The translations under genes and the position numbers were made by a program. The notes beneath the pieces are model-generated. The model was not told the DNA's origin, ran no database searches, and was given only the letters and a program-made list of their open reading frames with translations. A stretch of DNA of 30,619 nucleotides from a virus, in IMG/VR virus record IMGVR_UViG_3300046718_000807, positions 1 to 30,619 of that record; one strand, written 5' to 3'. Every line of letters begins with the position of its first letter. Positions within the stretch are counted from its first letter, which is position 1. This document shows, piece by piece, positions 7,296 through 28,598 of the stretch.

Positions 7296-8133
7296 CCTTT
7301 CCAGCCTGCTCGGCGGGGGCAACGCCCACACTCAACGCCTGATCGCCATCCAGCAGGCGCAGCAGGCCAAGGACGAGGCCGCAGCGCTGCAGGCCCAGCA
7401 GGATCGGCTCTACCAGCAGCAGGCCGCCGCGCAGCAGGCGCAGAACGACGCCCAGCAACGGCAATTCGATCAGTCGATGGCCGTCGTCCAGAAGGCGCAG
7501 GACAAGGCCGATACCATCGCCACCAAGCGAACAGCCGACGTAGCCGCGAACAACGCTGCGATAGACCAGCAATTCGGCCAGTTCAACGACGATTACTACA
7601 ACAGCCTGGTGAAATCGTATCAGGACGCCAACGACCCTGCGGTCAAGATGGCAGCGGCCAATGCGCGCGATAAATTGGTCGCATCGCTGGCTGGCCGTGG
7701 GCTCGGCGGCTCATCCGTATCGGCGCAGAATCTCTCCGACCTTGACCAGACGACCAACAAGGCGCTGGGCGACATCTCCTCTCAAGGTGCGGATATCGCC
7801 AACACCTTGCGCGGGCGGGTGGCGACGACGAGGGGCAATCTTTCTCAGGACGCATTGACCGCGGAGGACCCGGCAGCCCTGGGGGCCACGGCCGAAGCCA
7901 ATGCGACCGCGCTCGCGAGATCCGGCGTGTCGCAGGCCGGCATCCCGTCGCCGTCCGTCACGCCGGTCGCCGGTTCCACGCAGACGCCGGTTTCATCCCT
8001 GTTCGCGTCGCTCGTGCAGCCCTTCCAGACGGCAGCGCTCGCCAACATGAATTCCGGTGTCGGGTTGTCGGCGCCGACCGGTGTCAAGGCGCCGGTGCCG
8101 TCAGCGACCGGCTCCAGCTACGTCACGTCGTAA
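7288..8133 (+). CDS. Internal virion protein, Gln/Ala-rich, MCD-type (first copy)
   Basis: I start the gene at the ATG at 7288 (MCDLSSLLGGG), preceded by AAGGG and overlapping the previous gene by 8 bp. That gives 281 aa. Residues about 15-75 form a strong Gln/Ala coiled coil (IAIQQAQQAKDEAAALQAQQ). The middle has DKLVASLAGRGLGGSSVSAQNLSDL, and the C-terminus is Ala/Ser/Thr-rich. It is shaped like the small ejection proteins (T7 gp14-type) that leave the head and enter the host envelope during DNA entry. The next gene encodes a similarly built protein that also begins MCD, suggesting a duplicated pair. Confidence 0.6.
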   Translation: MCDLSSLLGGGNAHTQRLIAIQQAQQAKDEAAALQAQQDRLYQQQAAAQQAQNDAQQRQFDQSMAVVQKAQDKADTIATKRTADVAANNAAIDQQFGQFNDDYYNSLVKSYQDANDPAVKMAAANARDKLVASLAGRGLGGSSVSAQNLSDLDQTTNKALGDISSQGADIANTLRGRVATTRGNLSQDALTAEDPAALGATAEANATALARSGVSQAGIPSPSVTPVAGSTQTPVSSLFASLVQPFQTAALANMNSGVGLSAPTGVKAPVPSATGSSYVTS

Positions 8134-16324: not shown

Positions 16325-16620
16325 TGCGCTCGGGAGAGTTTGCCAAGCTTTGTCACCTCTCGCCAAGAACTATCCAACGCTACGTCGAAACCGGCCTACT
16401 GATCCCCGCCGGCCGTACTGAGAGACGCCAATCTCTATTCAAGCTTGAGCAGATCGAGGAAATCACATGGCTCGTCCGCAGCGCAAGGTACCCTGGTTTG
16501 AAACCCGTAACGGCATCGGCTACGCCGCCTGGTATGACCCGCAGGCTCGACGGACAAAGCGCGTATCGCTACGCACTGACACGATTGAAGATGGGCAGAA
16601 AGCCTTCGCGGCGTTCCTGA
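16324..16620 (+). CDS. MerR-like/excisionase-like DNA-binding protein
   Basis: The start at 16324 overlaps the XRE stop (TGATG). The first 55 residues are a winged HTH of the MerR/Xis kind (MRSGEFAKLCHLSPRTIQRY, VETGLLIPAGRTERRQSLFK). This DNA-binding form is used by phage excisionases and by directionality factors. The annotated frame runs on to 98 aa, of which the last 51 codons lie over the integrase start in another frame. This C-terminal part (LKPVTASATPPGMTRRLDGQ) looks like low-constraint sequence. The function is inferred from fold and from its place directly before int. Confidence 0.65.
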   Translation: MRSGEFAKLCHLSPRTIQRYVETGLLIPAGRTERRQSLFKLEQIEEITWLVRSARYPGLKPVTASATPPGMTRRLDGQSAYRYALTRLKMGRKPSRRS

Positions 16621-17498
16621 GCACGGGTTCAGGCTACATGGCCGGGATGCGCCTAGGCGATCGCATGACGGTGCGCCAGGCGTTGATGACGTATGAGAGC
16701 GAGCAAGGGCCGAACTGCGTCGACCGGAAGACGATGCGATCCCGCGTCAAGACACTGCTGGCCCATTTCGGCGACGAGCCTTTGGCCGACGTCGACATCC
16801 CGCGCTGCCGGGTCTATGGCGCGGTCAGGGCCGCCGACGGCATCGCGGTCATCACCATCCGGCGTGAGCTCGGCATCCTCCAGGCCGCGGCCAATCACGC
16901 CAAGCGATGGAAGCGGATCGGCACGCCGGAGAGCCCTGGCCTGCCGACGATCGAGCTGCCGGCGGCGCTGGAGCGGGCCGGAGAGGCCCCATGGATCACT
17001 AAGGCGGAACTGGCCACGGTGCTCGATGCAGCGGAAGGCCGGCTGCACGACTTTATCGTGCTGGCCTACTACACCGCGTCCCGTCGCAACGCCATTGAGA
17101 CGCTGCGTGTCGAGCAGGTCCGGCTCGATCTCGGCCGCGTGCACTTGGCCAAGGACGGGGAGCGGAAGACCAAGAAGCGCCGCCCTATCGTGCCCATCTT
17201 CCCCGAGATGCGCGAGGCGCTGGATCGCCGCATCGCGGCCGCCGAGGATGGCTGGCTCTTCGGCCGCAGATGGAAGGCCTATGAGCCTTTCGTGAACCTA
17301 TTACGGCGTGCCGGCATCACCAACGGACGCCGTCACCCGCACGTGCTGCGGCACAGCCGGGCCACCCACCTGCTGCTCGACGGGGCTTCCATCTACGCGG
17401 TCGCCAAACTGTTGGGCGACACCGTGAGCACGGTCGAGCGGGCCTATGGCCACTGCTCCGTCGAGTACCTTTCACAGCTTGGCCAGCAGGCCGCGTAA
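16467..17498 (+). CDS. int: Tyrosine recombinase / phage integrase
   Basis: This 343-aa protein is a full-length integrase. The N-terminal arm-binding part (WFETRNGIGYAAWYDPQARRTKRVSLRT) is followed by a SAM-like core-binding region (about 65-160) and the catalytic domain. Visible residues are Arg206 (TASRRNAIETL), Lys in HLAKDGERKTKKRR, H292-x-x-R295 (HVLRHSRATHLL) and the nucleophile Tyr327 (VERAYGH). The usual LGH before the Tyr is LGD here (316-318), a variant seen in other alphaproteobacterial integrases. The start at 16467 makes an unusual 154-bp overlap with the Xis-like frame. It shows the element is able to integrate. Confidence 0.92.
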   Translation: MARPQRKVPWFETRNGIGYAAWYDPQARRTKRVSLRTDTIEDGQKAFAAFLSTGSGYMAGMRLGDRMTVRQALMTYESEQGPNCVDRKTMRSRVKTLLAHFGDEPLADVDIPRCRVYGAVRAADGIAVITIRRELGILQAAANHAKRWKRIGTPESPGLPTIELPAALERAGEAPWITKAELATVLDAAEGRLHDFIVLAYYTASRRNAIETLRVEQVRLDLGRVHLAKDGERKTKKRRPIVPIFPEMREALDRRIAAAEDGWLFGRRWKAYEPFVNLLRRAGITNGRRHPHVLRHSRATHLLLDGASIYAVAKLLGDTVSTVERAYGHCSVEYLSQLGQQAA

Positions 17499-17968: not shown

Positions 17969-20148
17969 TTCCGGTAGCGCTCCCCGGCCCAGGCGCTCGC
18001 GGCGATAGGCAACCCGAAGGCCCATTTCGGAATTTCCGTCATAATTTTTTCAAAATTTTGTAAGGTTCCGAAGCCAAGCGGCACCTCGCAAACGACCTCG
18101 TCATGCACCGATAAGACCACCGGATACCCTGCCGCCTCCAGCCGTATCATGGCCTCTGCCATGATGTCCCTCGCGACCGCCTGGGTGATGTTCTCGGCCC
18201 ACAGCCCGCCATAAGCATACTGCTCGGTCCACTGCTTCGTGAACGAATCTACCCCCTTATAGGCGAGCACCCGGCGGACCACGACGTCCCCCTCGTCGTC
18301 GACCCATGGCATCGCCTTCATCGCGAAATGCGGAAAGGGGTAGCAGAGCGAGCGGCCGCTCGGCAGACGCACCCACAGGAACGATCCCGACTTGCGCATC
18401 TTCACCGGCTCGACGTAGATCACCGGGTGCTCCTTTAAGGCGCCCTTCTGGCCGCGGGGGTTTTCGGCGTCGCGGTGCAGCACGTCGGTGTTCGAGATGG
18501 CTTCCATGGTGCCGCGCTCGAGGTCCTTCCACCATGAGGTGGTCCCGTCATGCGCGGCTCGCCAGCGCCGCTTGATGATCTCGGCCGTCACCCAGGCGCG
18601 CTCGCCCATGCCGCTCTGTTTCCCCCTACTTTCGTAGGCGGCCTGCGCCTGCTCCACGAGGCCGGGCGATGTAGCGGTGATCAGCTCGTAGCTCTCGGCA
18701 ATGTCGACGCCATAGGTTTTGGCCATGGCGCCGAAGGCGCCGGGCCCGCCCTGGTAGCCGAGCGCGAGCTCTTGCACCTTGCCGATCTGCCGCTGGGCCT
18801 TGGTGACGGATTCCGGATCCACGCCGAATGATCTCCCGTAGGCCACCTGGTACAGGTCGGGGCCTTTGCCTTCGTCGTAATCCCTGAAGGCTCTGAGCTT
18901 CCAGTTCTCCCCCGCCAACCAAGCTAGCACCCGTCCCTCGATATTGCTGAAATCGGCGGCCATCAGGCGATGCCCTTCGCGGGCCCGGACCATGCCGCGT
19001 ATGCAATCGCCCACCACCGAAAGCGGCTGGTCATAGACCGTCTCGATGAGGTCGAGCGAGCCATAGCCGACGAGCTCGATCGCGGTCGACACGTCGTCGC
19101 TCGAGGGCCTCTTCAAATTCTGCGGCTGAAACCGCCTGCCGCCCCAGCGGCCGGTGGATGCCGCGTGAAACTGTAAAAGGCCGCGTGCACGACCGTCGGC
19201 GCTCATGCCGGCCAATAGCGCATCGATCTTGGCAACCGAGGTCTTGGCCGTTGCGGCCCGCAGCTCCAATGCTTCTCGCACGTTTGGCGCGAGGTCATCC
19301 CGCGCCAGGATCTCGATAAGCTTGTCCTTCGCCAGGCTATCGCCGTCGCCGCCATTGCCGCGGAACCACTTCGCCAACCGGCCGACCTCAGTGCATTTTT
19401 GCACCTCGCCGGCAGTGACGATTTTCATGCGCGCATCGGCCTTGACCGTCGCGGCCTTCACGATCGCCTTGGCGGCCTCGCAGAGCGGCACGTCGACCTG
19501 CACGCCACGCCCGTTGATCACCTGGTCCAATCGCCACAGCGCCTGCTCGGCCTCACTGAGCGGCATGAGCCTCTCGTGCAGCATCCGTTCGACCTCGACG
19601 TCGGTGCGGCAGTACTCGTAGAGCCGCTCCAACTTCTCGGAATCCTCCCACCACGTATAGACCGGAGCGTCATTTTCCATGCATGGATGCGCGTGCGGGT
19701 CCGGCCCTAATACCGATCGCGGCCGCGCCATGCGCAGCATCAGCCCCCGCCCGACCATGTCCTTAGGGATGGTGAGCGACAGCGCCGCGGCGCAGTTCTC
19801 GAGCGACGCCGGCAGCGCCATGGCCAGCGCCATACTCATGGTGCAGCGCCATTGCTCTGGATTGGGCACTGGCCAGCCATAGCGTGGCGTGAGGATGTGC
19901 TGCCAAATTTGCATCTCGAAATTGGCGTTATGCGCAACGATCGGCCAGCCACGCCGAACGAATTCTCCTATGGCGATCGGCGGCGTATCGGTTCTTCGCC
20001 AAAGGAACACATCCCCGTCGTCGATCGCGAACGCTGCGCATTGCACATCGGTCGTCGGATCTTCTGCATAACGATAGACACCGGCGGTCTTGAGCTCGAC
20101 CGTGCTGCGTGTCTCGAAATCGAGATGGAGCGTGTGGGTTTCAGGCAT
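17965..20148 (-). CDS. Family A DNA polymerase with 3'-5' exonuclease domain
   Basis: This 727-aa protein is the phage replicative polymerase. The N-terminal proofreading domain has Exo I LHLDFETRS (Asp10, Glu12), Exo II HNANFE (73-78) and Exo III YCRTDVE (179-185). The polymerase domain has motif A MAADFSNIEGRVLAW (catalytic Asp399), motif B KAQRQIGKVQELALGYQGG (450-468) and motif C LSVHDEVV (His-Asp-Glu at 682-684). No 5'-3' exonuclease is present, as in other phage pol A enzymes. It would extend primers laid down by the Prim-Pol/helicase at 26646. The start overlaps the upstream secreted-protein stop (TGATG). Confidence 0.93.
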   Translation of the reverse strand: MPETHTLHLDFETRSTVELKTAGVYRYAEDPTTDVQCAAFAIDDGDVFLWRRTDTPPIAIGEFVRRGWPIVAHNANFEMQIWQHILTPRYGWPVPNPEQWRCTMSMALAMALPASLENCAAALSLTIPKDMVGRGLMLRMARPRSVLGPDPHAHPCMENDAPVYTWWEDSEKLERLYEYCRTDVEVERMLHERLMPLSEAEQALWRLDQVINGRGVQVDVPLCEAAKAIVKAATVKADARMKIVTAGEVQKCTEVGRLAKWFRGNGGDGDSLAKDKLIEILARDDLAPNVREALELRAATAKTSVAKIDALLAGMSADGRARGLLQFHAASTGRWGGRRFQPQNLKRPSSDDVSTAIELVGYGSLDLIETVYDQPLSVVGDCIRGMVRAREGHRLMAADFSNIEGRVLAWLAGENWKLRAFRDYDEGKGPDLYQVAYGRSFGVDPESVTKAQRQIGKVQELALGYQGGPGAFGAMAKTYGVDIAESYELITATSPGLVEQAQAAYESRGKQSGMGERAWVTAEIIKRRWRAAHDGTTSWWKDLERGTMEAISNTDVLHRDAENPRGQKGALKEHPVIYVEPVKMRKSGSFLWVRLPSGRSLCYPFPHFAMKAMPWVDDEGDVVVRRVLAYKGVDSFTKQWTEQYAYGGLWAENITQAVARDIMAEAMIRLEAAGYPVVLSVHDEVVCEVPLGFGTLQNFEKIMTEIPKWAFGLPIAASAWAGERYRK

Positions 20149-20546
20149 CAGCGCGAGAACCAGCTAAAAGGCTGTATCGGCACTTTGCGCAGCATACGCG
20201 AATCCGGCAACGGAAGCTCGACCTCCGGCGCAGGCTTGTCGATCGGCAGAAGCTCGTCCTCGCTGGGGATGCGCTCCTCGATCCGCAGCCGGTCCTGCTT
20301 CTTGGCCGCCTCGACCTCTACCGGGTACGCCCTGAAGGTGACGCGATGATGCCGGTGGGAAACATACTGGCGAGGGGCACGCACCCACACATAGCCCCTC
20401 GCCAGCCGAGAGCGTTTGTTCACACAAACGCCCAAGCTCAAACGCTTGATGTAGCCGGGCCCACAACGATGCGCGTGACGCGCATGGCGCGCTTCAGCCG
20501 GGCCAGCAATGGCCAACAAGACGACCAAGAAGACAAAACACCTCAA
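20148..20546 (-). CDS. Predicted secreted basic protein in replication operon
   Basis: I place the start at a TTG (20546) that overlaps the previous stop (TTGA), in keeping with the operon's 4-bp overlaps; no better start is present. The first 20 residues (MRCFVFLVVLLAIAGPAEAR) are a well-formed Sec signal peptide with an AEA cleavage site. The mature part is His/Arg-rich (HARHAHRCGPGYIKRLSLG) with two Cys (CGPG, GVCV) that could form a disulfide, and ends Pro/Glu-rich. Export to the periplasm is odd for a protein encoded between replication genes. It may alter the cell envelope, for example in superinfection exclusion. No family recognised. Confidence 0.55.
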   Translation of the reverse strand: MRCFVFLVVLLAIAGPAEARHARHAHRCGPGYIKRLSLGVCVNKRSRLARGYVWVRAPRQYVSHRHHRVTFRAYPVEVEAAKKQDRLRIEERIPSEDELLPIDKPAPEVELPLPDSRMLRKVPIQPFSWFSR

Positions 20547-20935
20547 GCGTTGCCCGCCGTTAACCTTGCTGCGTCCCGTTCTCCCTCCGCTTTCGCGAGG
20601 GCAGCGGTGAGTGCTTGCGCGGCCACGCTGTCGCTAGAGTATCCTTGAGCCCAATAAGGTCGTAGCGTCTCTAGTGCAGCTATCCTTTCCTCCGCCTTCG
20701 CGAGCGCGGCGCGCAGCGGCTCGATGTGCTCGGCGATGATGCGGTCGGCTGAGATTCCCACTTCAGCCACACGTCCGATCCCGCATTCTTCGTGAATGAT
20801 CCGCGCAATCGCCTCTCGCTCTGTGGGGGCGGTCATGAGCCTACCTTTAATGTTCTCAATAAGATGATCTCGCTGATGATTTGAAGTTACGCGAGCGGCT
20901 TGTGCCCAAGTTTCTCGCTCTGTGGGGGCGGTCAT
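20543..20935 (-). CDS. Coiled-coil hypothetical protein with duplicated in-frame start (130 aa)
   Basis: The ATG at 20935 overlaps the preceding stop (ATGA). The N-terminal MTAPTERE recurs exactly 33 codons later, at a second in-frame ATG (20836) with its own RBS (AAAGGTAGG), so a 97-aa short form is likely too. The rest is a helical coiled coil (HIEPLRAALAKAEERIAALE and, near the end, AALAKAEGERDAARLT), typical of small early phage proteins of unknown role. No enzyme or metal motif. It lies between a Zn-type protein and the secreted protein. Confidence 0.6.
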   Translation of the reverse strand: MTAPTERETWAQAARVTSNHQRDHLIENIKGRLMTAPTEREAIARIIHEECGIGRVAEVGISADRIIAEHIEPLRAALAKAEERIAALETLRPYWAQGYSSDSVAAQALTAALAKAEGERDAARLTAGNA

Positions 20936-20938
20936 GAG
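20814..20938 (-). repeat. 26-bp direct repeat spanning two start codons
   Basis: 20814-20839 and 20913-20938 are identical over 26 bases and 99 bp apart, a multiple of three. Each copy contains an ATG and the codons for MTAPTERE. The result is two similar start regions in one frame. Confidence 0.85.
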
Positions 20939-21195
20939 TGTTCCTCACTGTCGGCTGCGCACCCGGCGATAATGTTGCGAGCCTCGGCGTTGTCGCCATA
21001 GTCACAGTCGCCGCACTTGGCACATTCGTAGACCGGAACGGAGCAGCCGCCGGCGACATTCTCGCAGCCACAATTACACCCGCCAATGTGTGCCCATCGG
21101 TGGCCCACCTCGGCGCATCCAGCTTGCGCGATCTCTCGTTCAAGCTTCGCAACTTCCGCCCGCGCCGCTTCAAGCTGTGCTGTGCGCTCGCTCAT
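20932..21195 (-). CDS. Small Cys-rich putative zinc-binding protein (87 aa)
   Basis: I use the ATG at 21195 because it overlaps the previous stop (ATGA); the longer open frame is unlikely. The N-terminal 27 residues are a short coiled coil (QLEAARAEVAKLEREIAQAG). A Cys/His cluster follows (GHRWAHIGGCNCGCENVAGG, then CSVPVYECAKCGDCDYGD) with enough ligands for one or two zinc ions. The end is acidic. It could be a nucleic-acid or protein-binding adaptor of the replication module; the family is not recognised. Confidence 0.6.
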   Translation of the reverse strand: MSERTAQLEAARAEVAKLEREIAQAGCAEVGHRWAHIGGCNCGCENVAGGCSVPVYECAKCGDCDYGDNAEARNIIAGCAADSEEHS

Positions 21196-21332
21196 GCCTC
21201 GAACACCTTCGGCGTCTTGACCTCGTCGCTCACGTTCACGCACTCCACGAGCTTCCCTTTCCGATAGACCTTCCAGGCCGCCACCCATAAAGGCGAGACG
21301 ACATGGGACTGGCCCCATATCGTCTCGAGCAT
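21192..21332 (-). CDS. Small hypothetical protein (46 aa; start uncertain)
   Basis: The stop overlaps the next start (ATGA), which supports expression. The protein from ATG 21332 is MLETIWGQSHVVSPLWVAAW, then KVYRKGKLVECVNVSDEVKT. That start lies 5 nt after the GapR stop with AAGG close by. An ATG at 21395 would give 67 aa but overlaps the GapR gene by 58 bp. It is probably a compact beta fold. Function not recognised. Confidence 0.5.
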   Translation of the reverse strand: MLETIWGQSHVVSPLWVAAWKVYRKGKLVECVNVSDEVKTPKVFEA

Positions 21333-21337
21333 CGCCT

Positions 21338-21607
21338 TCAGATCAGGCCCAACGCGTGCAGGTACATGTCGCGGATCTCTTCGTTCTCCCGCCATTGGTC
21401 GATGTCCTTGCGAATGGCGATCATCTGCCGGATGGCCTTGGCGTCGAAGCCTTGGGCCTTGGCCTCGGCCATGACCTCGCGGATGTCGCCGACGATCACG
21501 GCGCGCTCCTCGACGAGCTTCTCGACGCGCGTGATGAAGGCCTTGAGCTGAGACGCCGAAACGGAATTACCGCCAGGCGCCGCTCGTGTGTTCTCTGCAG
21601 TGGTCAT
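21338..21607 (-). CDS. GapR / DUF2312 family DNA-binding protein
   Basis: This 89-aa protein has the whole GapR pattern: SQLKAFITRVEKLVEERAVI, VGDIREVMAEAKAQGFDAKA, IRQMIAIRKDIDQ and an end DMYLHALGLI. Cellular GapR of alphaproteobacteria encircles overtwisted DNA ahead of replication and transcription forks and helps gyrase and topoisomerase IV. An N-terminal tail of about 18 residues is specific to this copy. The RBS is good (GAGGTGAG). Sitting between the SSB and polymerase genes, it would be suited to relieve or sense torsion during phage replication, or to compete with host GapR. The family call is firm; the phage role is inferred. Confidence 0.85.
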   Translation of the reverse strand: MTTAENTRAAPGGNSVSASQLKAFITRVEKLVEERAVIVGDIREVMAEAKAQGFDAKAIRQMIAIRKDIDQWRENEEIRDMYLHALGLI

Positions 21608-21617
21608 CTCTCACCTC

Positions 21618-22229
21618 TTACGTGTACAGGTCGTCAATCGATGCCGGTTTTCCCGCTTCGCCACCCACGGATTCGAACTCGTCTTCCGCCGCGGCCCGCA
21701 CCCGCCCGACCGGGTCGGCGTGGTCGAGCAGCTGCACGTTCTGTAGCCCTAAGCTAATCCCCTTGCCGCCGGTCTTGTGGTCATAGGCAAACGGCCGGAT
21801 GGTGGCCCGGGCCCAGCGGCCGGCATAGACTTCCTCTTCCTTGTCCTCGCCGACATTGGTGCGATCGGCGCGGATGACATTCGGCCGGTCGTCGCTCGCT
21901 GTGCGGATGAACATCTCGTATTCATCGGGATCAAATCCCATGTTCGGGTGGTCTTTGACGAACAGGAACGGCTTCTTGACCTTGTTGTACTTGGACTTGT
22001 AGTCCGCGCCCCAGCGGTCGACCGCGCATTTCTCGACGGCCTCGGCCAACACGCGGAGGTCGGCTTCCTTCGGGAACACCAGGCTCAATTTGTAGCGCGC
22101 CTTCTCCGGATCGGTCTCGCCGGCCGGAAGGCTCTTCTTGTACAAGGACGGATAGCTCATGCGAGCTCGCGCCGTGATCACGTTGCCGGAAGAAGCGATA
22201 GAGCAGTTGTTCATAAGGTTCGTGGTCAT
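21618..22229 (-). CDS. Single-stranded DNA-binding protein, DUF2815 / Enc34 type
   Basis: This 203-aa protein matches the DUF2815 (Enc34-type SSB) pattern: ITARARMSYPSLYKK, ARYKLSLVFPKEADL, YAGRWARATIRPFAYD, GKGISLGLQNVQLLDHADPVG and an acidic tail AEDEFESVGGEA. The acidic end is like that of SSBs that recruit partner proteins. It would coat ssDNA for the family A polymerase. The ATG at 22229 has GGAG (22241-22238) 8 nt upstream; the solitary CRISPR-like repeat ends 14 nt before that site, so a protein bound to the repeat in the mRNA could affect translation of this gene. Confidence 0.85.
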   Translation of the reverse strand: MTTNLMNNCSIASSGNVITARARMSYPSLYKKSLPAGETDPEKARYKLSLVFPKEADLRVLAEAVEKCAVDRWGADYKSKYNKVKKPFLFVKDHPNMGFDPDEYEMFIRTASDDRPNVIRADRTNVGEDKEEEVYAGRWARATIRPFAYDHKTGGKGISLGLQNVQLLDHADPVGRVRAAAEDEFESVGGEAGKPASIDDLYT

Positions 22230-22255
22230 CGATTGTACTCCATTTACTCAGCGGC

Positions 22256-22287
22256 GTTTCAATCCACACTCCCACGGGGGGAGTGAC
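22256..22287 (-). CRISPR. Solitary type I-C-like CRISPR repeat (candidate RNA-based anti-CRISPR)
   Basis: Read on the - strand, this 32-nt element has the exact parts of a type I-C repeat. They are GT (22287-22286), stem arm CACTCCC (22285-22279), loop CCCGT (22278-22274), stem arm GGGAGTG (22273-22267) and the conserved 3' handle TGGATTGAAAC (22266-22256). The stem pairs perfectly over 7 bp. It is alone: no second copy is seen one repeat-plus-spacer length up- or downstream, and no cas gene is present. It sits in the 67-bp gap between the DUF2800 nuclease stop and the SSB start, in the sense of the operon. Six-frame translations show the misleading peptides that such repeats give (RRFNPHSHGG, GVWIETPL). 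Confidence 0.85.
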
Positions 22288-22296
22288 CAGCACTTC

Positions 22297-23493
22297 TTAC
22301 GCAAACTCAACAGCCGCGTCGGCCTTCACGGCCGCACGCGGATCGTCAGACGGTGCGAGCACCGTGCCGGTCGATTCTTTGATCACCAGAGGTGACAGAA
22401 ACTTGGCCCGTTCCGCCTTGTTGCGGCCCGGCACGAACCTCTCGACTTGGGCCGGCGAGACGAGCTTGCGGGTATAGAGCTCCTCCTCGGCGACAATGGC
22501 GATAAGCGCAGCCGCGGCCTCGTCGTCTTCACGCCATTTACGGTTGGCTCTTTTGGCGACCAGCTTCCAGCCCGGCGGGCATCTGCCTTCGGTGGCTTCG
22601 GCGTGAGCAAACTCACGCACGCGCCGGCACCACATCTCGATGAAGTCGACCTCGGCCAGCACCCCCGCCAATTGGTGAGGGGTCAGGGTTGTCGGCTCCG
22701 GCGGCGGGCTTTGTTCATCGAAGTCCGCCATCGCCTCGGTCAGCGCCTTCTCGCGCAAGGCCGGGCACACCGGGGCCGCCTTGCAGAACTTGCACCACTC
22801 GCCCGGCACCAGCGGCGCGGTGGGTACCTGCGTGGCCTTGGCGGCCGCCACCAGCGCCGTCGCGAACTCCGCGAGATCCGCCACGTTGGCCGTCCATTCG
22901 CGCACCGGTCCGCGCGGATGCGGTGCACGCGGTTGAATGATGGCCACCGTCACGAGGCTGACGCCGCGGTTATGATAGCGCTCGGCCGCGCCTAGGGCAT
23001 AGGACATCGCCTGCGGGTTTTCCTTGGGCTCGATGGCAATGCCGCGGCCGTACTTGAAGTCGGCGACGACTAGGTGCCTGTGCACCGCCGAATAGAGAAG
23101 TGCGTCGGCGGTGCCGCCTTCCATGCCCTCGATGCCGAAATGGGCGAGCGACACATGCGTCTCGAAACTCTTCTCGTAACCCTTGAAAGGAGGACTGAAG
23201 ACGTAATCGAGATAGGCCTGAACGCCGTCGGCCATCTCTTCGTCGACGATGATCGTATCGAAAACGGAACCTGCGGCGACATGGCCGGGCTTGCCGATGT
23301 AGTGCGCGGCATCGACGTGACTGTCGATACAGAGCTGCGCCAACTCGTGCGCGACGGTGCCTTCGCGCGCATAGGCCGTCTCGCGATCGGGCAGCCCCGT
23401 CTCCATGCGCACGCTGCCAGGGCAGGCCATCCAGCGATGGGCGCCGCTGGGGCTAAGGCGCGCATGAGCTCGAGTGGAATGCGCCTCGGTCAT
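22297..23493 (-). CDS. DUF2800 family Cas4/RecB-like PD-(D/E)XK nuclease
   Basis: This 398-aa protein is a probable nuclease of the RecB/Cas4 superfamily. It begins RLSPSGAHRWMACPGSVRM with Cys24. H49-E50 (TVAHELA) and Asp130 (GTADALL) precede the core DFKYG with Asp145 and Lys147, the D...DxK metal centre. Near the end of the catalytic part is WCKFCKAAPVCPAL (Cys234, Cys237, Cys243). One N-terminal and three C-terminal cysteines are the Cas4/AddB-type arrangement for a 4Fe-4S cluster. DUF2800 genes commonly travel with DUF2815, SNF2 and pol A genes, as here, so a role in phage recombination or end processing is likely. The ATGA overlap sets the start. Confidence 0.85.
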   Translation of the reverse strand: MTEAHSTRAHARLSPSGAHRWMACPGSVRMETGLPDRETAYAREGTVAHELAQLCIDSHVDAAHYIGKPGHVAAGSVFDTIIVDEEMADGVQAYLDYVFSPPFKGYEKSFETHVSLAHFGIEGMEGGTADALLYSAVHRHLVVADFKYGRGIAIEPKENPQAMSYALGAAERYHNRGVSLVTVAIIQPRAPHPRGPVREWTANVADLAEFATALVAAAKATQVPTAPLVPGEWCKFCKAAPVCPALREKALTEAMADFDEQSPPPEPTTLTPHQLAGVLAEVDFIEMWCRRVREFAHAEATEGRCPPGWKLVAKRANRKWREDDEAAAALIAIVAEEELYTRKLVSPAQVERFVPGRNKAERAKFLSPLVIKESTGTVLAPSDDPRAAVKADAAVEFA

Positions 23494-23990
23494 TGGGCCC
23501 CCTTGCCTGCCGCGCCTTCAGCCACATAGGCGGCGCACGCCGCCACGAAGCCGGCCCTTTGGGTATCGGTCAGCTCGCGGGTCTTCTTGACGCCGAAGCC
23601 GCCCAGTACATGCCCAGGCGCCAGGATGTCACCCGTGCGGCTCACAAGCGACTTGACGGCCTCGATGCAGTCATCAGGCGTCACGACGACAGGCGCTTCG
23701 GAGATATGCTTCTTCGCTGACGGCGCTTCGTCCTCGGGCTCGTTCGTTCCGACCTTAGGCGGACGGCCGCGGCGCGGTGCTTTAGCCTCGGGGAACTGGA
23801 CCACGGGGCCGTTGGCCACAGGCGCATCGACCGAATCCACCAACAGCGGATTGACCGCTTCGTCGGCCTTGAGCTCCCGGCCCTCGCGAATCACCTCTGG
23901 CGCAACCGGCAATCCGACCTTAGCCAGGCTGCTGAGCTCGTTGCGCATCTCCTCCACGTTCTCGAATGTCATCCGCAACTCGATCGCCAT
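23490..23990 (-). CDS. AT-hook-containing hypothetical protein (166 aa)
   Basis: The N-terminal 40 residues are helical and acidic (MAIELRMTFENVEEMRNELS). The middle is disordered with a typical AT-hook, APRRGRPPKVG (about 91-101). The C-terminal 60 residues form a small domain (DDCIEAVKSLVSRTGDILAP, ARELTDTQRAG-like helix, AACAAYVAEGA). It would bind DNA, perhaps to position the nuclease or SNF2 protein whose genes flank it. Stop and start overlap with the DUF2800 gene; a 12-bp gap separates it from the helicase stop. Family not recognised. Confidence 0.6.
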   Translation of the reverse strand: MAIELRMTFENVEEMRNELSSLAKVGLPVAPEVIREGRELKADEAVNPLLVDSVDAPVANGPVVQFPEAKAPRRGRPPKVGTNEPEDEAPSAKKHISEAPVVVTPDDCIEAVKSLVSRTGDILAPGHVLGGFGVKKTRELTDTQRAGFVAACAAYVAEGAAGKGAQ

Positions 23991-24002
23991 AGTGCTATCC
24001 TT

Positions 24003-25307
24003 TCAATTGAACAGCGCGTTGATATCGGCCAACTTCCTCGAGCACGCCCGCGCGATGTCCTCATCGATGCTGTCCGGGATGGTGGCGATGCGCGCGATGC
24101 ACGCAGCCCGCTGGCCAATGCGGTGGATGCGCATGATGGCTTGCTCGTTGTCCCCTGGAACCCAAGACTGCTCGACAAGCACCACATCCGAAGCAGCATT
24201 GAGTGTGATGCCCGTGCCGGCCGCCTGCAATTGGCCAATGAACACAGGACAGCGGCGGCTACGCTGAAAGCGCTCTACCTCATCGGCGCGCTCGCCCGGC
24301 AACGATGAGCCAGTAAGCACGGCCGGCTCGAAGGCACGCAGCGCCACGGCCATGATCTCGATGACCTCGCGGTGATGAGCAAAGAGCACCACCTTGGAAA
24401 GGCCTGACGCCAACTGATCCTTCACCCATCGCGCCACTGCATCGGCCTTGACCACGCCGATCGCGCGCCGGTATGTCGCCATCGTCTCGCCCAAGCCCTT
24501 AAGCCCGGCCAAGCCTTCGCTGTTCAGCACCCGGCGCACCTCGACAGCGAAATCCGACAAAGCCGTTGGGTCGGTCGCCTCTAACGGCAACATGGCGATC
24601 CGCAAAGGCGGCAGATCGGTGAGCACATCGAGCTTGCGGCGGCGCAGCATGATTTGCGAAAGGATGCCCTTGAGCTCCGGCACGCGTTTGGCGCCGACGA
24701 TCTTGGCGCCGAAGCCGGTTTCGACCAGGCGGCAGTAGCGCTGGGTGAACTGGTGGAAGTTGCGCGGCTTGGCCATGCCGCGCGGATTGGGAGCGCAGAT
24801 GAGCCCCGGGAACACGGCGTGCAGCATCGGCCACAGCTCCGAGGCGTTGTTCGGCGTCGGCGTGCCGGTCAGAAGCCACACCCTGCGACATTGCTTGACG
24901 AAGCCGCCTTCACAGTCCTTGCCGAAGATGACCTTGGTCCGCATGGCGCTGGGCGTCTTGAGGTAGTGCGCCTCGTCGATGATGACCAAGTCGAAGTTGG
25001 ACTTTGGCGGTATCATCCCCTTGCCCATAGAGGTGTTGCGGAAGGCGTCGTAGGACATCACGCGCCAGAGCTTGAGAATGGCGGGCCCGCCCCAGCGACG
25101 GAGCTCGTCCAGCCACACAGCGCGCACGCTCGCGGGGCAGATGACCAGCACATTGGTGAGCTTCAAGCGCAGCGCGGCAATGACGGCCTGCGGCGTCTTG
25201 CCAAGGCCCATCTCGTCCGCCAGCAGCGCGTCGGTCCGGCCCATAAGCCACTGCACACCCGCTTCCTGGAAGGGGTAGAGCGCCAAAGGCGGATTGACGT
25301 TGATCAT
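24003..25307 (-). CDS. SNF2-type DEAD/DEAH helicase (phage replication/recombination ATPase)
   Basis: I choose the ATG at 25307 (MINVNPPLALYPFQEAGVQW) because it overlaps the preceding stop (ATGA); an ATG at 25325 would add 6 residues. The 434-aa protein has the SF2 motifs: Q-like YPFQ (11-14), Walker A DEMGLGKT (31-38), motif II DEAH (111-114), motif III LLTGTP, and motif VI QAIMRIHRIGQ near 400. The single-unit SNF2 form, without accessory domains, is the kind found in phage replication modules with DUF2800/DUF2815. It likely remodels DNA or displaces proteins instead of acting as the main fork helicase. Confidence 0.9.
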   Translation of the reverse strand: MINVNPPLALYPFQEAGVQWLMGRTDALLADEMGLGKTPQAVIAALRLKLTNVLVICPASVRAVWLDELRRWGGPAILKLWRVMSYDAFRNTSMGKGMIPPKSNFDLVIIDEAHYLKTPSAMRTKVIFGKDCEGGFVKQCRRVWLLTGTPTPNNASELWPMLHAVFPGLICAPNPRGMAKPRNFHQFTQRYCRLVETGFGAKIVGAKRVPELKGILSQIMLRRRKLDVLTDLPPLRIAMLPLEATDPTALSDFAVEVRRVLNSEGLAGLKGLGETMATYRRAIGVVKADAVARWVKDQLASGLSKVVLFAHHREVIEIMAVALRAFEPAVLTGSSLPGERADEVERFQRSRRCPVFIGQLQAAGTGITLNAASDVVLVEQSWVPGDNEQAIMRIHRIGQRAACIARIATIPDSIDEDIARACSRKLADINALFN

Positions 25308-25519
25308 GATTGCCGGCGGCCCCACCAGCGCCGGAAAAGGCTAAGGCAATCGGGGCAAAGGTCCGCGGGCGCAACACCGATGGGGAAAGTCTCCTCGTCC
25401 GCTACCCCATCGACCTGCATCTTGATCCAGGCCCATCGCTGCACAACGGGCTCTTCAACCCAGCCGCAGCGGTCGCAAGTGTATCGCGACTTCAGGATAG
25501 AGGTGTCCTGACGCGTCAT
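25304..25519 (-). CDS. Small zinc-ribbon protein (71 aa)
   Basis: This protein has two CxxC knuckles, CDRCGW (15-20) and CPDCLS (55-60), with beta-like sequence between (VVQRWAWIKMQVDG). That is a compact zinc ribbon. The C-terminus is basic (LFRRWWGRRQ), suiting nucleic-acid contact. Both ends overlap their neighbours by 4 bp. It could be an accessory to the helicase that follows, but no family name is supported. Confidence 0.6.
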   Translation of the reverse strand: MTRQDTSILKSRYTCDRCGWVEEPVVQRWAWIKMQVDGVADEETFPIGVAPADLCPDCLSLFRRWWGRRQS

Positions 25520-25881
25520 GACGAGAACGCCGTCGGCGCCAAGCCCATCCGGTCCAAATGCTTGACGAGATCCTTGAGGCCATTGCGCTGGGCGAGCGCC
25601 ATCCTGCAGAAGGACACCAGCACGTCCGCCGCCGCCTTATCGTCATCGAGGCAGAACAAGGTGAGCGACATGGCGCGCACGCAGCCGGCCACCACGCCGA
25701 CCGGCGCGTCGGAGCGCGCAGCCAATTGGAACATGTCCCGCTCGACTTGGTGGTCCTTAGAGCCTGAGTCCAACGCCTGCTGGACGAGAAACGCCTCGAA
25801 CAGATCGACGATCGCGAAGCCGTCTGGATGTTCCTTGATGAACTGTTCCGTGTAGTCGGCAGGTATGCTCATGGGGCTCAT
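25516..25881 (-). CDS. Hypothetical alpha-helical protein (121 aa)
   Basis: The product (MSPMSIPADYTEQFIKEHPD, then FAIVDLFEAFLVQQALDSGS) is wholly helical with a hydrophobic C-terminal half (VVAGCVRAMSLTLFCLDDD). There is no membrane helix or known motif. The start may be the ATG at 25881 or one 9 nt further on; neither has a strong Shine-Dalgarno. The stop overlaps the zinc-ribbon start (ATGA). It is an early gene of unknown role. Confidence 0.55.
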   Translation of the reverse strand: MSPMSIPADYTEQFIKEHPDGFAIVDLFEAFLVQQALDSGSKDHQVERDMFQLAARSDAPVGVVAGCVRAMSLTLFCLDDDKAAADVLVSFCRMALAQRNGLKDLVKHLDRMGLAPTAFSS

Positions 25882-25887
25882 GACGTA

Positions 25888-25986
25888 TCACCAGCGGATC
25901 TTTTTGGCGAAACTGTAATAGGCGATACAGACAAGCACAGCCATCGCCGCGCCCCCGAGCAGAATGCCTATTAACATGTTCAGCAT
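25888..25986 (-). CDS. 32-residue single-TM membrane peptide
   Basis: The ATG at 25986 lies 2 nt after the RuvC stop, and the frame runs to a TGA at 25888-25890. The peptide is MLNMLIGILLGGAAMAVLVC followed by IAYYSFAKKIRW. This is a single hydrophobic helix with a positively charged end (KKIRW), that is, a membrane anchor oriented with the C-terminus in the cytoplasm. It fills an otherwise empty gap in a tightly packed operon, which supports that it is real. The role is unknown. Confidence 0.6.
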   Translation of the reverse strand: MLNMLIGILLGGAAMAVLVCIAYYSFAKKIRW

Positions 25987-25988
25987 GG

Positions 25989-26459
25989 TCACACCCATTC
26001 CTTGATGCCGTATTCGACGAGTGCATAGCGGACCAACGCGATTGCGTCGGCCTCGTTATCGTCCGCAGGGTTGAAGCCCAGGCTTCTGGCGACGGCGATC
26101 ATCTTCGCCTTGTCGGCGTTGCCCTTGCCGGTGAAGTGCTTCTTGATGGTGGCCACGGGCACGGCCTGGTAGTCGATTGACGCCTCTTGGCAGTAGGTCT
26201 GCAGCATGGCCACGAGACCTCCATAAACATGAGCGGCACTCGTGCCCACATGACGCCGGACCTCCTCATAGGCCACGAGATCCGGCCGGATGGATTCGGC
26301 CGTCTCTTGCAATCGCGCGCGGAATTTGACGAAGCGCATCCCGCTCGAGTCGTAGCGACTAGGCTGGAACGACCATGAGCCAGACAGCATCGCGTTGTCG
26401 GTCGTCGACGCGATCGCGAAGCCGGTGCGCGTGCCCAGGTCGAGAGCCAGGATTTTCAT
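25989..26459 (-). CDS. RuvC-like Holliday junction resolvase
   Basis: This 156-aa protein has the RuvC/RNase H fold signature: ALDLGTRTGFA with Asp7, an acidic pair YEEVRRH (Glu65/66), a GGLVAMLQ helix, VPVATIKKHFTGKGNADK and the last acids DDNEADAIAL (Asp138). All four catalytic acids can be placed. It would cut branched DNA left by replication or recombination before packaging. It is the first gene of the - strand replication operon, with a 5' leader of about 110 nt from the predicted promoter. Confidence 0.88.
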   Translation of the reverse strand: MKILALDLGTRTGFAIASTTDNAMLSGSWSFQPSRYDSSGMRFVKFRARLQETAESIRPDLVAYEEVRRHVGTSAAHVYGGLVAMLQTYCQEASIDYQAVPVATIKKHFTGKGNADKAKMIAVARSLGFNPADDNEADAIALVRYALVEYGIKEWV

Positions 26460-26570
26460 GGGATTTCAGCCGGGTGGCGAACCGGCAACGGGCAAGGCAT
26501 GCCAGGACTTTCGATTGTCGACGGGTGTTTTCGATAATGGATTTTGAGCTCGATCAAGCCCAACCGAGAC

Positions 26571-26601
26571 AGGCTAGACGGCTTGATTATGCTGTGTCAA
26601 G
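26571..26601 (-). promoter_or_regulatory. Promoter candidate for the replication operon
   Basis: On the - strand, CTTGACA (26601-26595) is a perfect -35. A -10-like CTAGCC/TAGCCT (26577-26571) follows at 17-18 bp. Alphaproteobacterial promoters commonly show CTTGAC. The -35 is part of a 10-bp palindrome TCAAGCTTGA (26597-26606), a possible operator. This lies in the 186-bp gap between divergent replication transcripts. No clear + strand promoter could be fixed; TTTCGAT occurs twice, 20 bp apart (26509, 26529). Confidence 0.5.
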
Positions 26602-26645
26602 CTTGAAATTCGAACTTCGCCAAGCCTCGCCAAGGATACATCATC

Positions 26646-28598
26646 ATGACCGACACCCCCATGCGTGAGCATGCTTTGGCGCTTGCCGCGAGGGGGTTTC
26701 GAGTTTTTAAATTGGAGGTTTGGGGGAAGCATCCCGTCGTCGAGAACTGGCCAGAATCGGCGTCGTGCGATGCGGATACGGTGCGAGCCATGTGGACCCT
26801 GCCCTGGGGCGAGGCGCTCGACAACAATGTGGGAATCCTGGCCGGCGGCGATCTGATGGTCATCGACGTCGACATGAAGAACGGGGCTCATGGCGATGCG
26901 TCGCTGGACTACCTGGTCGATTCGCTGGAGCTCGATGTGCGAACCTTCACAGTGCGCACGCCGACCGGCGGCCGGCACATCTACTTCAGGACTGCCGGCG
27001 TTGAGGTCCGCAACTCGGTGCGAGCGCTTAGGCCAGGGCTCGATGTGAGGGGGTGGCATGGATACGTGGTCGGTCCGGGGAGCGAAACGTGGCAGGGCCG
27101 CTACGAGATCCTGTCGGACAAGCCGATCGCCATGGCGCCGGATTGGTTGGTGAACATGTGCGGACGCGCGCGCCGGTGCGCGCCCGAATCAGGAACACGC
27201 CCCGCGGCTGGCACGATAGAGCTCGATGCGCAAGCGGACCTGGAGCGGGCCGTGAGATGGCTCGAGGACGAGGCGCCGACGGCCGTGAGCGGCAATGGGC
27301 GTAACAACGAAACGTACAGGGTGGCAGCACGCCTGGGCGACCTGGGCGTGTCCGAGGCGCAGGCTGTGGTGCTGATGATGGGGCACTGGAATGAGCTGAA
27401 GGTGTTTCCGCCTTATGAATGGGAGCTGCTCGAGGCGAGGGTGGGGCACTCCTACAAGTACCGTCGGCGGCCACTAGGAGTTGCATCGCCGCTCGTCGAG
27501 TTCGATGCGGTCGAGCTCGCACCAGACCCGGTGAGGGTAAAACGCAATAAGAACAGCAAGCCGACAACCGAATGGGTGGACCAAGTCATGCCGGGCAACG
27601 ACAATCCATACCTCATCAAGGGCTGGCTCGACGCCGGCATGATATCGATCCTCTATGGGGCTTCGGGAGCTTCCAAGAGCTTCGTGGCGCTCGACATGGG
27701 CTGGCACGTGGGCGCTGGGAAGGCCTGGAACGGCTGCGAGGTGAAGCGGGGGATCGTGCTCTACGTGGCACTCGAAGGCGGCGCCGGAATCAAAAAGCGG
27801 CTGGTGGCGTTGCGGACACGGCACGGGATAGGCTGCCACCTGGCCGCCATGCGTTGGGGCATCGACCTCAAACCAGGGAGCAAAGATGCCGCGGAGCTCG
27901 TTCGCTTGGCGCGTGAGGCCGAGAAGGAGCAAGGCGGGTTGCCGGTGGTGCTGATCATCATCGACACGCTCTCGCGGGCGACGGCCGGGCTCGACGAGAA
28001 CTCGGCATCGGACATGAACGGGGTCGTGCGGGTCGTCGAGGGCATCTGCGAGACGCTCCAATGCCATGTCATGCTGGTGCATCACAGTGGCAAGGACGCC
28101 GCGCGTGGAGCGAGAGGTTCTTCGGCGCTGAAGGCGGCGACCGACACGGAGCTCGAGGTCGTCTCCGAAGGACCGGAAGGCACGCTCAGCGCCACCAAGC
28201 AGCGGGACATCGACGGGACCATGGAAGCCCCATTCGTCAGGGAGACGATCGAGGTTGGCAAGGATGCGGACGGCAAAGCTATTTTCAGCTGTGTGATCAG
28301 ATGGCGATCGAAGGCCGATATCGAATTCGGGCCGGTCGAATTAAATGACGGACAAAGCCAGTTGCTAGAGTTCCTCGATTTATTGGACGAAGGAGACGGC
28401 GTGGTGGAATCCGATTGGTGGGCGCATGCGCAGGCCAACTGGAGGGAGAGCAAGCACGGAAAGTGGCGCTTGAGTTCAACTCAAGCGGCGCCGATCAGCC
28501 TAAGCAGATTGCGGGCAATACGCTTGAGTTTGCTTAAGTTGAGCTTGATTTATAAAAACGAGAAAGGTCAATGGTTTAGGCGTATAACTCAACCGTGA
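26646..28598 (+). CDS. Primase-polymerase / RepA-like helicase fusion
   Basis: This 650-aa protein primes and unwinds DNA for phage replication. Residues about 1-170 are a Prim-Pol domain: GFRVFKL at the start, the catalytic DxD in VIDVDMKNG (Asp74, Asp76) and TGGRHIYF (His111). A linker helix region (195-275) follows. Then comes a RecA/KaiC-type helicase: Walker A YGASGASKS (Lys344), Walker B VVLIIIDTLSR (Asp440) and VMLVHHSGKD (His479/480). The C-terminal end is winged-helix-like, and its DNA also holds the first iteron-like palindrome. It is divergent from the operon encoding the polymerase and SSB with which it must work. Confidence 0.9.
   Translation: MTDTPMREHALALAARGFRVFKLEVWGKHPVVENWPESASCDADTVRAMWTLPWGEALDNNVGILAGGDLMVIDVDMKNGAHGDASLDYLVDSLELDVRTFTVRTPTGGRHIYFRTAGVEVRNSVRALRPGLDVRGWHGYVVGPGSETWQGRYEILSDKPIAMAPDWLVNMCGRARRCAPESGTRPAAGTIELDAQADLERAVRWLEDEAPTAVSGNGRNNETYRVAARLGDLGVSEAQAVVLMMGHWNELKVFPPYEWELLEARVGHSYKYRRRPLGVASPLVEFDAVELAPDPVRVKRNKNSKPTTEWVDQVMPGNDNPYLIKGWLDAGMISILYGASGASKSFVALDMGWHVGAGKAWNGCEVKRGIVLYVALEGGAGIKKRLVALRTRHGIGCHLAAMRWGIDLKPGSKDAAELVRLAREAEKEQGGLPVVLIIIDTLSRATAGLDENSASDMNGVVRVVEGICETLQCHVMLVHHSGKDAARGARGSSALKAATDTELEVVSEGPEGTLSATKQRDIDGTMEAPFVRETIEVGKDADGKAIFSCVIRWRSKADIEFGPVELNDGQSQLLEFLDLLDEGDGVVESDWWAHAQANWRESKHGKWRLSSTQAAPISLSRLRAIRLSLLKLSLIYKNEKGQWFRRITQP

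Follow-up and report, generated by a model that had tools for sequence, protein, structure and literature searches.

A solitary type I-C CRISPR repeat in the replication operon of a phage, a candidate RNA anti-CRISPR

RacrIC1 is a validated type I-C RNA anti-CRISPR (Racr) that is made as part of a bicistronic acrIC5-racr RNA and restores phage infection in PAO1::I-C (PMC10651486). For the type I-F RacrIF1, inhibition is exerted by the product upstream of the cut, which is bound by Cas6f and a Cas7f filament (PMC10651486). An element counts as a solitary repeat unit (SRU) under the SRUFinder definition if its identity to a known CRISPR repeat and its coverage both reach 90% (PMC10651486), if it lies outside predicted genes with no full or partial repeat within 100 bp, and if it scores at least 41.1 bits (PMC10651486). 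In type I-C systems, cleavage of the pre-crRNA by Cas5d leaves an 11-nt handle at the 5' end and a 21-nt hairpin at the 3' end, with which the enzyme remains associated (PMC5965380).

Here we describe a 32-nt element in a viral sequence of 30,619 nucleotides (IMG/VR record IMGVR_UViG_3300046718_000807; the whole of this stretch is called the window). In kind, the element matches the published solitary repeat units and Racrs, among which is the validated RacrIC1, and it probably serves as an operon-borne type I-C Racr that would jam host I-C immunity.

The repeat element and its counterparts in bacterial arrays

Read along the minus strand from 22287 to 22256, the 32-nt element is GTCACTCCCCCCGTGGGAGTGTGGATTGAAAC and consists of a 2-nt lead (GT), a 7-bp stem (CACTCCC/GGGAGTG) that encloses the loop CCCGT, and an 11-nt handle, TGGATTGAAAC. 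RNA folding of the element returned the 7-bp stem, the 5-nt loop and a single-stranded 11-nt tail formed by the handle, which is the shape taken by genuine I-C array repeats. The element thus has the secondary structure of a cognate I-C repeat that is looked for in a Racr, with stem, loop and tail as in the array repeats. Stem stability was typical and not exceptional (z -1.65 for the element alone and z -0.28 in a 75-nt context); the case for the element is carried by its sequence identity.

The array repeat of Bacillota bacterium Ch109, present in 53 copies in two stretches, is identical to the element at 31 of 32 positions and differs in one loop base. An earlier note had described a full type I-C repeat anatomy with a 7-bp stem and handle, and this description stands on both the fold, which is that of array repeats, and the 31/32 identity. 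Four further array repeats matched the element at 30/32 positions each. In a blastn-short run with a word size of 6 and one repeat as the subject, the Ch109 repeat gave 56.0 bits and 96.9% identity over 32/32 positions. The remainder of the window contained nothing comparable: outside the element, no site had fewer than 11 mismatches to any of 18 array repeats (21/32 at best), and the best matches in 60 windows simulated with an order-1 Markov model had 9-12 mismatches (at best 23/32). These matches are far weaker, and the element is therefore not a product of chance.

The pattern GTCACTCCC-N5-GGGAGTGTGGATTGAAAC was used to list 40 stretches from an 84,980-species genome collection. The exact-stem stretches were mostly real arrays, the largest of 121 copies in one stretch, and the exact-stem arrays among the 40 stretches listed came from Bacillota, Desulfobacterota, Bacteroidota and others. 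A Cas5d scoring above the family cut-off is encoded by Ch109 and also by Desulfobacteraceae BB40 and Desulfobulbaceae BRH_c16a, the latter two having related arrays. Searches for the exact 32-mer found no further copy in IMG/VR, and the 32-mer had no match among plasmids at E<=1. When 776 spacers from the collected arrays were compared with the window, a single 16-nt match was obtained, which is at chance level.

The element is present in one copy: a search of the 30,619-bp record that allowed up to three mismatches found no second copy, and no full or partial repeat was found within 100 bp of the element. A search for cas genes gave no Cse2 match and no cas family in the main proteins scanned from a record that may be incomplete. 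The earlier statement that the repeat occurs with no array and no cas genes was thus upheld, for a single copy and for the proteins scanned. Set against the SRU definition, the element shows 31/32 identity over its full length to the Ch109 repeat, a score of 56.0 bits compared to the 41.1 required (scored against one repeat), an intergenic location in a 67-bp gap, and nothing repeat-like within 100 bp. A viral mini-array has at least two repeats around a spacer, and there is one repeat here; a phage-encoded CRISPR-Cas system has cas genes in the genome, and the proteins scanned included none.

The same stem had been expected in Rhizobiales, an expectation that was not borne out, as neither a Rhizobiales member nor any other alphaproteobacterium was among the 40 exact-stem stretches listed. 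An alphaproteobacterial I-C system with another stem is found on Tistrella pTM3, and an I-C system has been recorded in ant-gut Rhizobiales (PMC5156944). A GapR-type gene and a distant relatedness to Rhizobium phages hint at an alphaproteobacterial host. Another distant capsid relative infects Microcystis, so the host class remains a guess.

Position within the replication operon

The element has the orientation of the coding strand of a minus-strand replication operon, which also includes small unknown genes, and lies between the exonuclease gene and ssb in the leader directly 5' of the ssb ribosome-binding site (Table 1). The exonuclease gene ends at 22297 and ssb starts at 22229, with an in-frame TGA 21 nt 5' of the ssb ATG. 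The gene coordinates and this stop codon agree with the earlier placement of the element, inside an untranslated 67-bp gap and in the coding sense of the operon. A 120-aa alternative frame spans the element, but a coding function was rejected because stops interrupt the same frame in the closest relative.

Table 1. Coordinates of the element, its parts and the neighboring genes in the window
Feature	Position	Strand	Basis or remark
Solitary type I-C CRISPR repeat, candidate Racr	22256..22287	-	Sequence, array-repeat match and fold
Hairpin	22267..22285	-	Stem 22279-22285 / 22267-22273; RNA folding; expected Cas5d-binding part
Expected Cas5d cut	Between 22267 and 22266, 3' base of stem		Expected from the 11-nt 5' handle of I-C crRNA (PMC5965380)
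crRNA-type 5' handle, TGGATTGAAAC	22256..22266	-	Same in the array repeats compared
Untranslated 67-bp gap housing the element	22230..22296	-	Net 48 nt longer than in closest relative
Upstream gene, DUF2800 / PD-(D/E)XK exonuclease, 398 aa	22297..23493	-	Protein profile scan
Downstream gene, Enc34-type ssDNA-binding protein (ssb), 203 aa	21618..22229	-	Protein profile scan
SNF2-type helicase, 440 aa	24003..25325	-	Same operon
GapR-like DNA-binding protein, 89 aa	21338..21607	-	Same operon
Family A DNA polymerase, 727 aa	17965..20148	-	Same operon

A search of positions 20000-26700 found no sigma-70-like promoter, so the element would be transcribed within the operon mRNA, with its abundance set by read-through, and we infer that it is co-transcribed with the operon genes. 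Racrs are often, though not obligatorily, located near other acr genes. None of the operon's small genes was recognized as a member of the acr families in Pfam and NCBIfam, although these genes may include unrecognized acr genes, and the element consequently stands without a recognized acr neighbor. A tyrosine integrase gene (16467-17498) is nearly 5 kb from the element.

Elsewhere in the window, a 26-bp exact direct repeat (20814-20839 and 20913-20938) includes the start region of a 130-aa open reading frame, so that a further copy of this start falls inside the frame, about 100 bp downstream. Next to this direct repeat, a 41-bp segment is 97.6% identical in the closest relative, where the flanks differ.

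Related phages and other solitary I-C repeats

Close relatives were sought with ssb, the exonuclease and the primase, and one was found, a 48,258-bp contig (L001/L003/L230) with 78% DNA identity whose ssb protein is 98% identical and whose exonuclease is 78% identical. Both flanking genes are retained in the relative, but its exonuclease-ssb gap is 19 nt long and lacks the element, and no match with up to three mismatches was found in its contig. Alignment at the junction showed a clean 48-nt difference. A clean absence in a syntenic relative marks the element as an accessory insertion, a distribution to be expected of counter-defense but not of a core regulatory site. Conservation in related phages had been proposed as a check on the Racr claim, with loss of the element beside retained flanking genes counting against it. 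The nearest relative shows just that loss and so weighs against the claim on those terms, though variable presence of an accessory element would be expected of an anti-CRISPR.

Among 80 exonuclease relatives, nearly all of them far more distant, no such hairpin-plus-handle was found at this junction. Rhizobium phage RHph_N65 has the helicase-exonuclease-ssb order in common with the window and about 560 bp without annotated genes between exonuclease and ssb, which indicates that the junction tolerates insertions. That gap (L127:19529-20090) contains an open frame starting MTEEWRSIPGEPGYEASSNGRIRSVDR that, by eye, resembles a NUMOD4/HNH homing endonuclease.

Scanning IMG/VR with a less strict type I-C pattern gave 97 stretches, and 54 solitary I-C copies representing 40 distinct sequences were counted among the loci returned. 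The stem pair left free by the pattern (positions 6 and 18) pairs in 39 of the 40 distinct solitary repeats, whereas shuffled controls averaged 17.4 and reached 25 at most, showing that solitary phage repeats keep the hairpin. Their neighbors included capsid, portal, terminase, DUF2213 and DNA polymerase genes. Among solitary repeats between co-directional genes, the sense strand was favored only weakly (about 11 to 6, from crude gene calls), and the argument does not draw on this bias. One solitary repeat, found in three loci (L143, L168, and L205), is identical to the I-C array repeat of Tistrella mobilis pTM3, a plasmid that encodes Cas5d.

Several loci with I-C repeats have features of their own. 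The Tistrella-identical repeats lie at L143:2954-2985, L168:3122-3153 and L205:2805-2836, the first of them downstream of a gene that terminase large subunit profiles recognize. At L192:3055-3086 (IMGVR_UViG_3300037104_000061), a solitary I-C repeat sits in frame between two apparent halves of a terminase large subunit, a call made by eye and not by profile, with in-frame stops directly 5' (TAA) and 3' (TAG) of the repeat. Two I-C-like repeats about 80 nt apart occur on the minus strand of L083 (IMGVR_UViG_3300006065_000008, about 7,570-7,700); the same AGATTTGAATGGTGAT stretch precedes each, and the second is followed by a hairpin and a T-rich run, an arrangement suggestive of a duplicated unit for transcribing repeat RNAs. 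A mobilizable plasmid of Azospirillum oryzae (NZ_CP054618.1; L229:4001-4032) has a single I-C repeat and no Cas5d match on the plasmid, and this may be a plasmid-borne solitary repeat. The small phage contig L084 contains an intact I-C repeat (minus strand, 868-899) and a degenerate one about 290 nt upstream. In an uncultured jumbo phage of 485 kb (LR745208.1; L129:1400-1532), about 100 bp separates two I-C-like repeats whose stems differ; they may form a small or degenerate array.

Proposed function, alternatives and known systems

A Racr is the best available reading of the element, a candidate function with a direct precedent in RacrIC1. Counted for it are the near identity (31/32) with an array repeat whose genome encodes Cas5d, agreement with the SRU definition, the recurrence of such repeats, the RacrIC1 precedent, and the accessory pattern of absence; counted against it are the lack of a sigma-70-type promoter, a close relative without the element, the lack of an alphaproteobacterium among the exact-stem stretches listed, and the lack of a recognized acr gene.

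Under the proposed mechanism, the operon mRNA would be read through the gap and the repeat would fold as an I-C hairpin. In a type I-C host, Cas5 (Cas5d) would bind this hairpin and cut at the 3' base of the stem. Of the two cleavage pieces, the upstream one would end in the 21-nt hairpin, to which Cas5d could remain bound, and the downstream piece would begin with the 11-nt crRNA handle, followed by the ssb leader in place of a phage-targeting guide. Either piece may tie up Cas5/Cas7/Cas8 unproductively and outcompete true crRNAs; by analogy with known Racrs, the element should titrate these proteins. To our knowledge, the mechanism of Racrs has been worked out biochemically for type I-F alone. 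The P. aeruginosa I-C PAM is TTC (PMC7913775), and since the phage's would-be protospacer has the AAC of the repeat in front of it instead, self-targeting of the phage DNA would be avoided.

Presence in only one of two close relatives and a gap open to insertions (RHph_N65 has about 560 bp there with no gene annotated) would also suit a neutral relic, that is, a repeat copied in via recombination or mis-integration at a host array and having no present function. However, the stem has kept all seven of its pairs and the handle all 11 of its bases, neither a spacer nor a partial repeat flanks the element, and intact stems recur over 40 distinct solitary elements, making a relic unlikely. The leader position directly before the ssb ribosome-binding site, the intact stem and a predicted weak hairpin that joins handle and leader are consistent with a Cas5d-dependent mRNA processing switch, in which cleavage would alter the stability or translation of the exonuclease/ssb message and sequestration would be secondary. 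We regard such a switch as rather unlikely, since the leader hairpin was no better than those of shuffled sequences (z -0.28) and the syntenic relative without the element has an ordinary 19-nt gap, from which it appears that the operon does not need the element. A combination of the two activities, also improbable, would have Cas5d cutting before ssb convert the message into a hairpin that traps Cas5d and a handle-led RNA, jamming I-C immunity and tuning the replication genes.

The processing rule for type I-C (PMC5965380) would place a defined sequence after the handle, as needed for a mini-array or crRNA-like guide that turns the host I-C system on related phages or represses host cas genes. 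A hidden second repeat or mini-array was rejected, as neither a second repeat nor a pseudo-repeat was found downstream or elsewhere near the element, and the 35 nt 3' of the repeat are the phage's own ssb leader. A guide against relatives was likewise rejected, because the match to the closest relative omits the first 14 nt, the seed region, and the guide reading as a whole is very improbable. An ordinary transcription terminator or a chance hairpin, suggested by a GC-rich hairpin in an intergenic gap, was rejected and is hardly credible, given that no T-run follows the hairpin, no terminator was called there and the match statistics exclude chance.

If active, the Racr candidate would add a type I-C Racr without a recognized promoter of its own, for which the phage replication operon would be the source of RNA. 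Cas5d both processes crRNA and caps the complex in type I-C systems, where either half of the cut repeat might do the blocking. A compact natural element between two known genes, together with a natural relative free of the element, makes a convenient test case.

The element appears to be a further instance of a phage strategy described only recently, and not a new kind of system. It would resemble viral CRISPR mini-arrays such as those of the archaeal viruses SPV1 and SPV2 (PMC11656645) in using a viral repeat with host Cas proteins, but those mini-arrays contain one or two spacers flanked by repeats and are directed against related viruses, whereas the element is without a second repeat. RacrIF1, from a Pectobacterium prophage, is likewise a solitary repeat that mimics the host hairpin and handle (PMC10651486), but it belongs to type I-F, depends on Cas6f instead of Cas5d and has its own strong promoter (PMC10651486). 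The other solitary I-C repeats in IMG/VR share the anatomy of the element and occur as lone phage copies, often in gene gaps, while their stems, loops and gene neighborhoods differ. RacrIC1, a prophage element of Bifidobacterium pseudocatenulatum (Camara-Wilpert et al., 2023, PMC10651486), is located 11 nt downstream of AcrIC5, and its activity was assayed in PAO1::I-C, whereas the neighbors of the element are the exonuclease gene and ssb. As described, RacrIC1 is, like the element, a solitary phage I-C repeat; it is carried on a polycistronic RNA with an adjoining gene, as is predicted for the element from its place in the operon.
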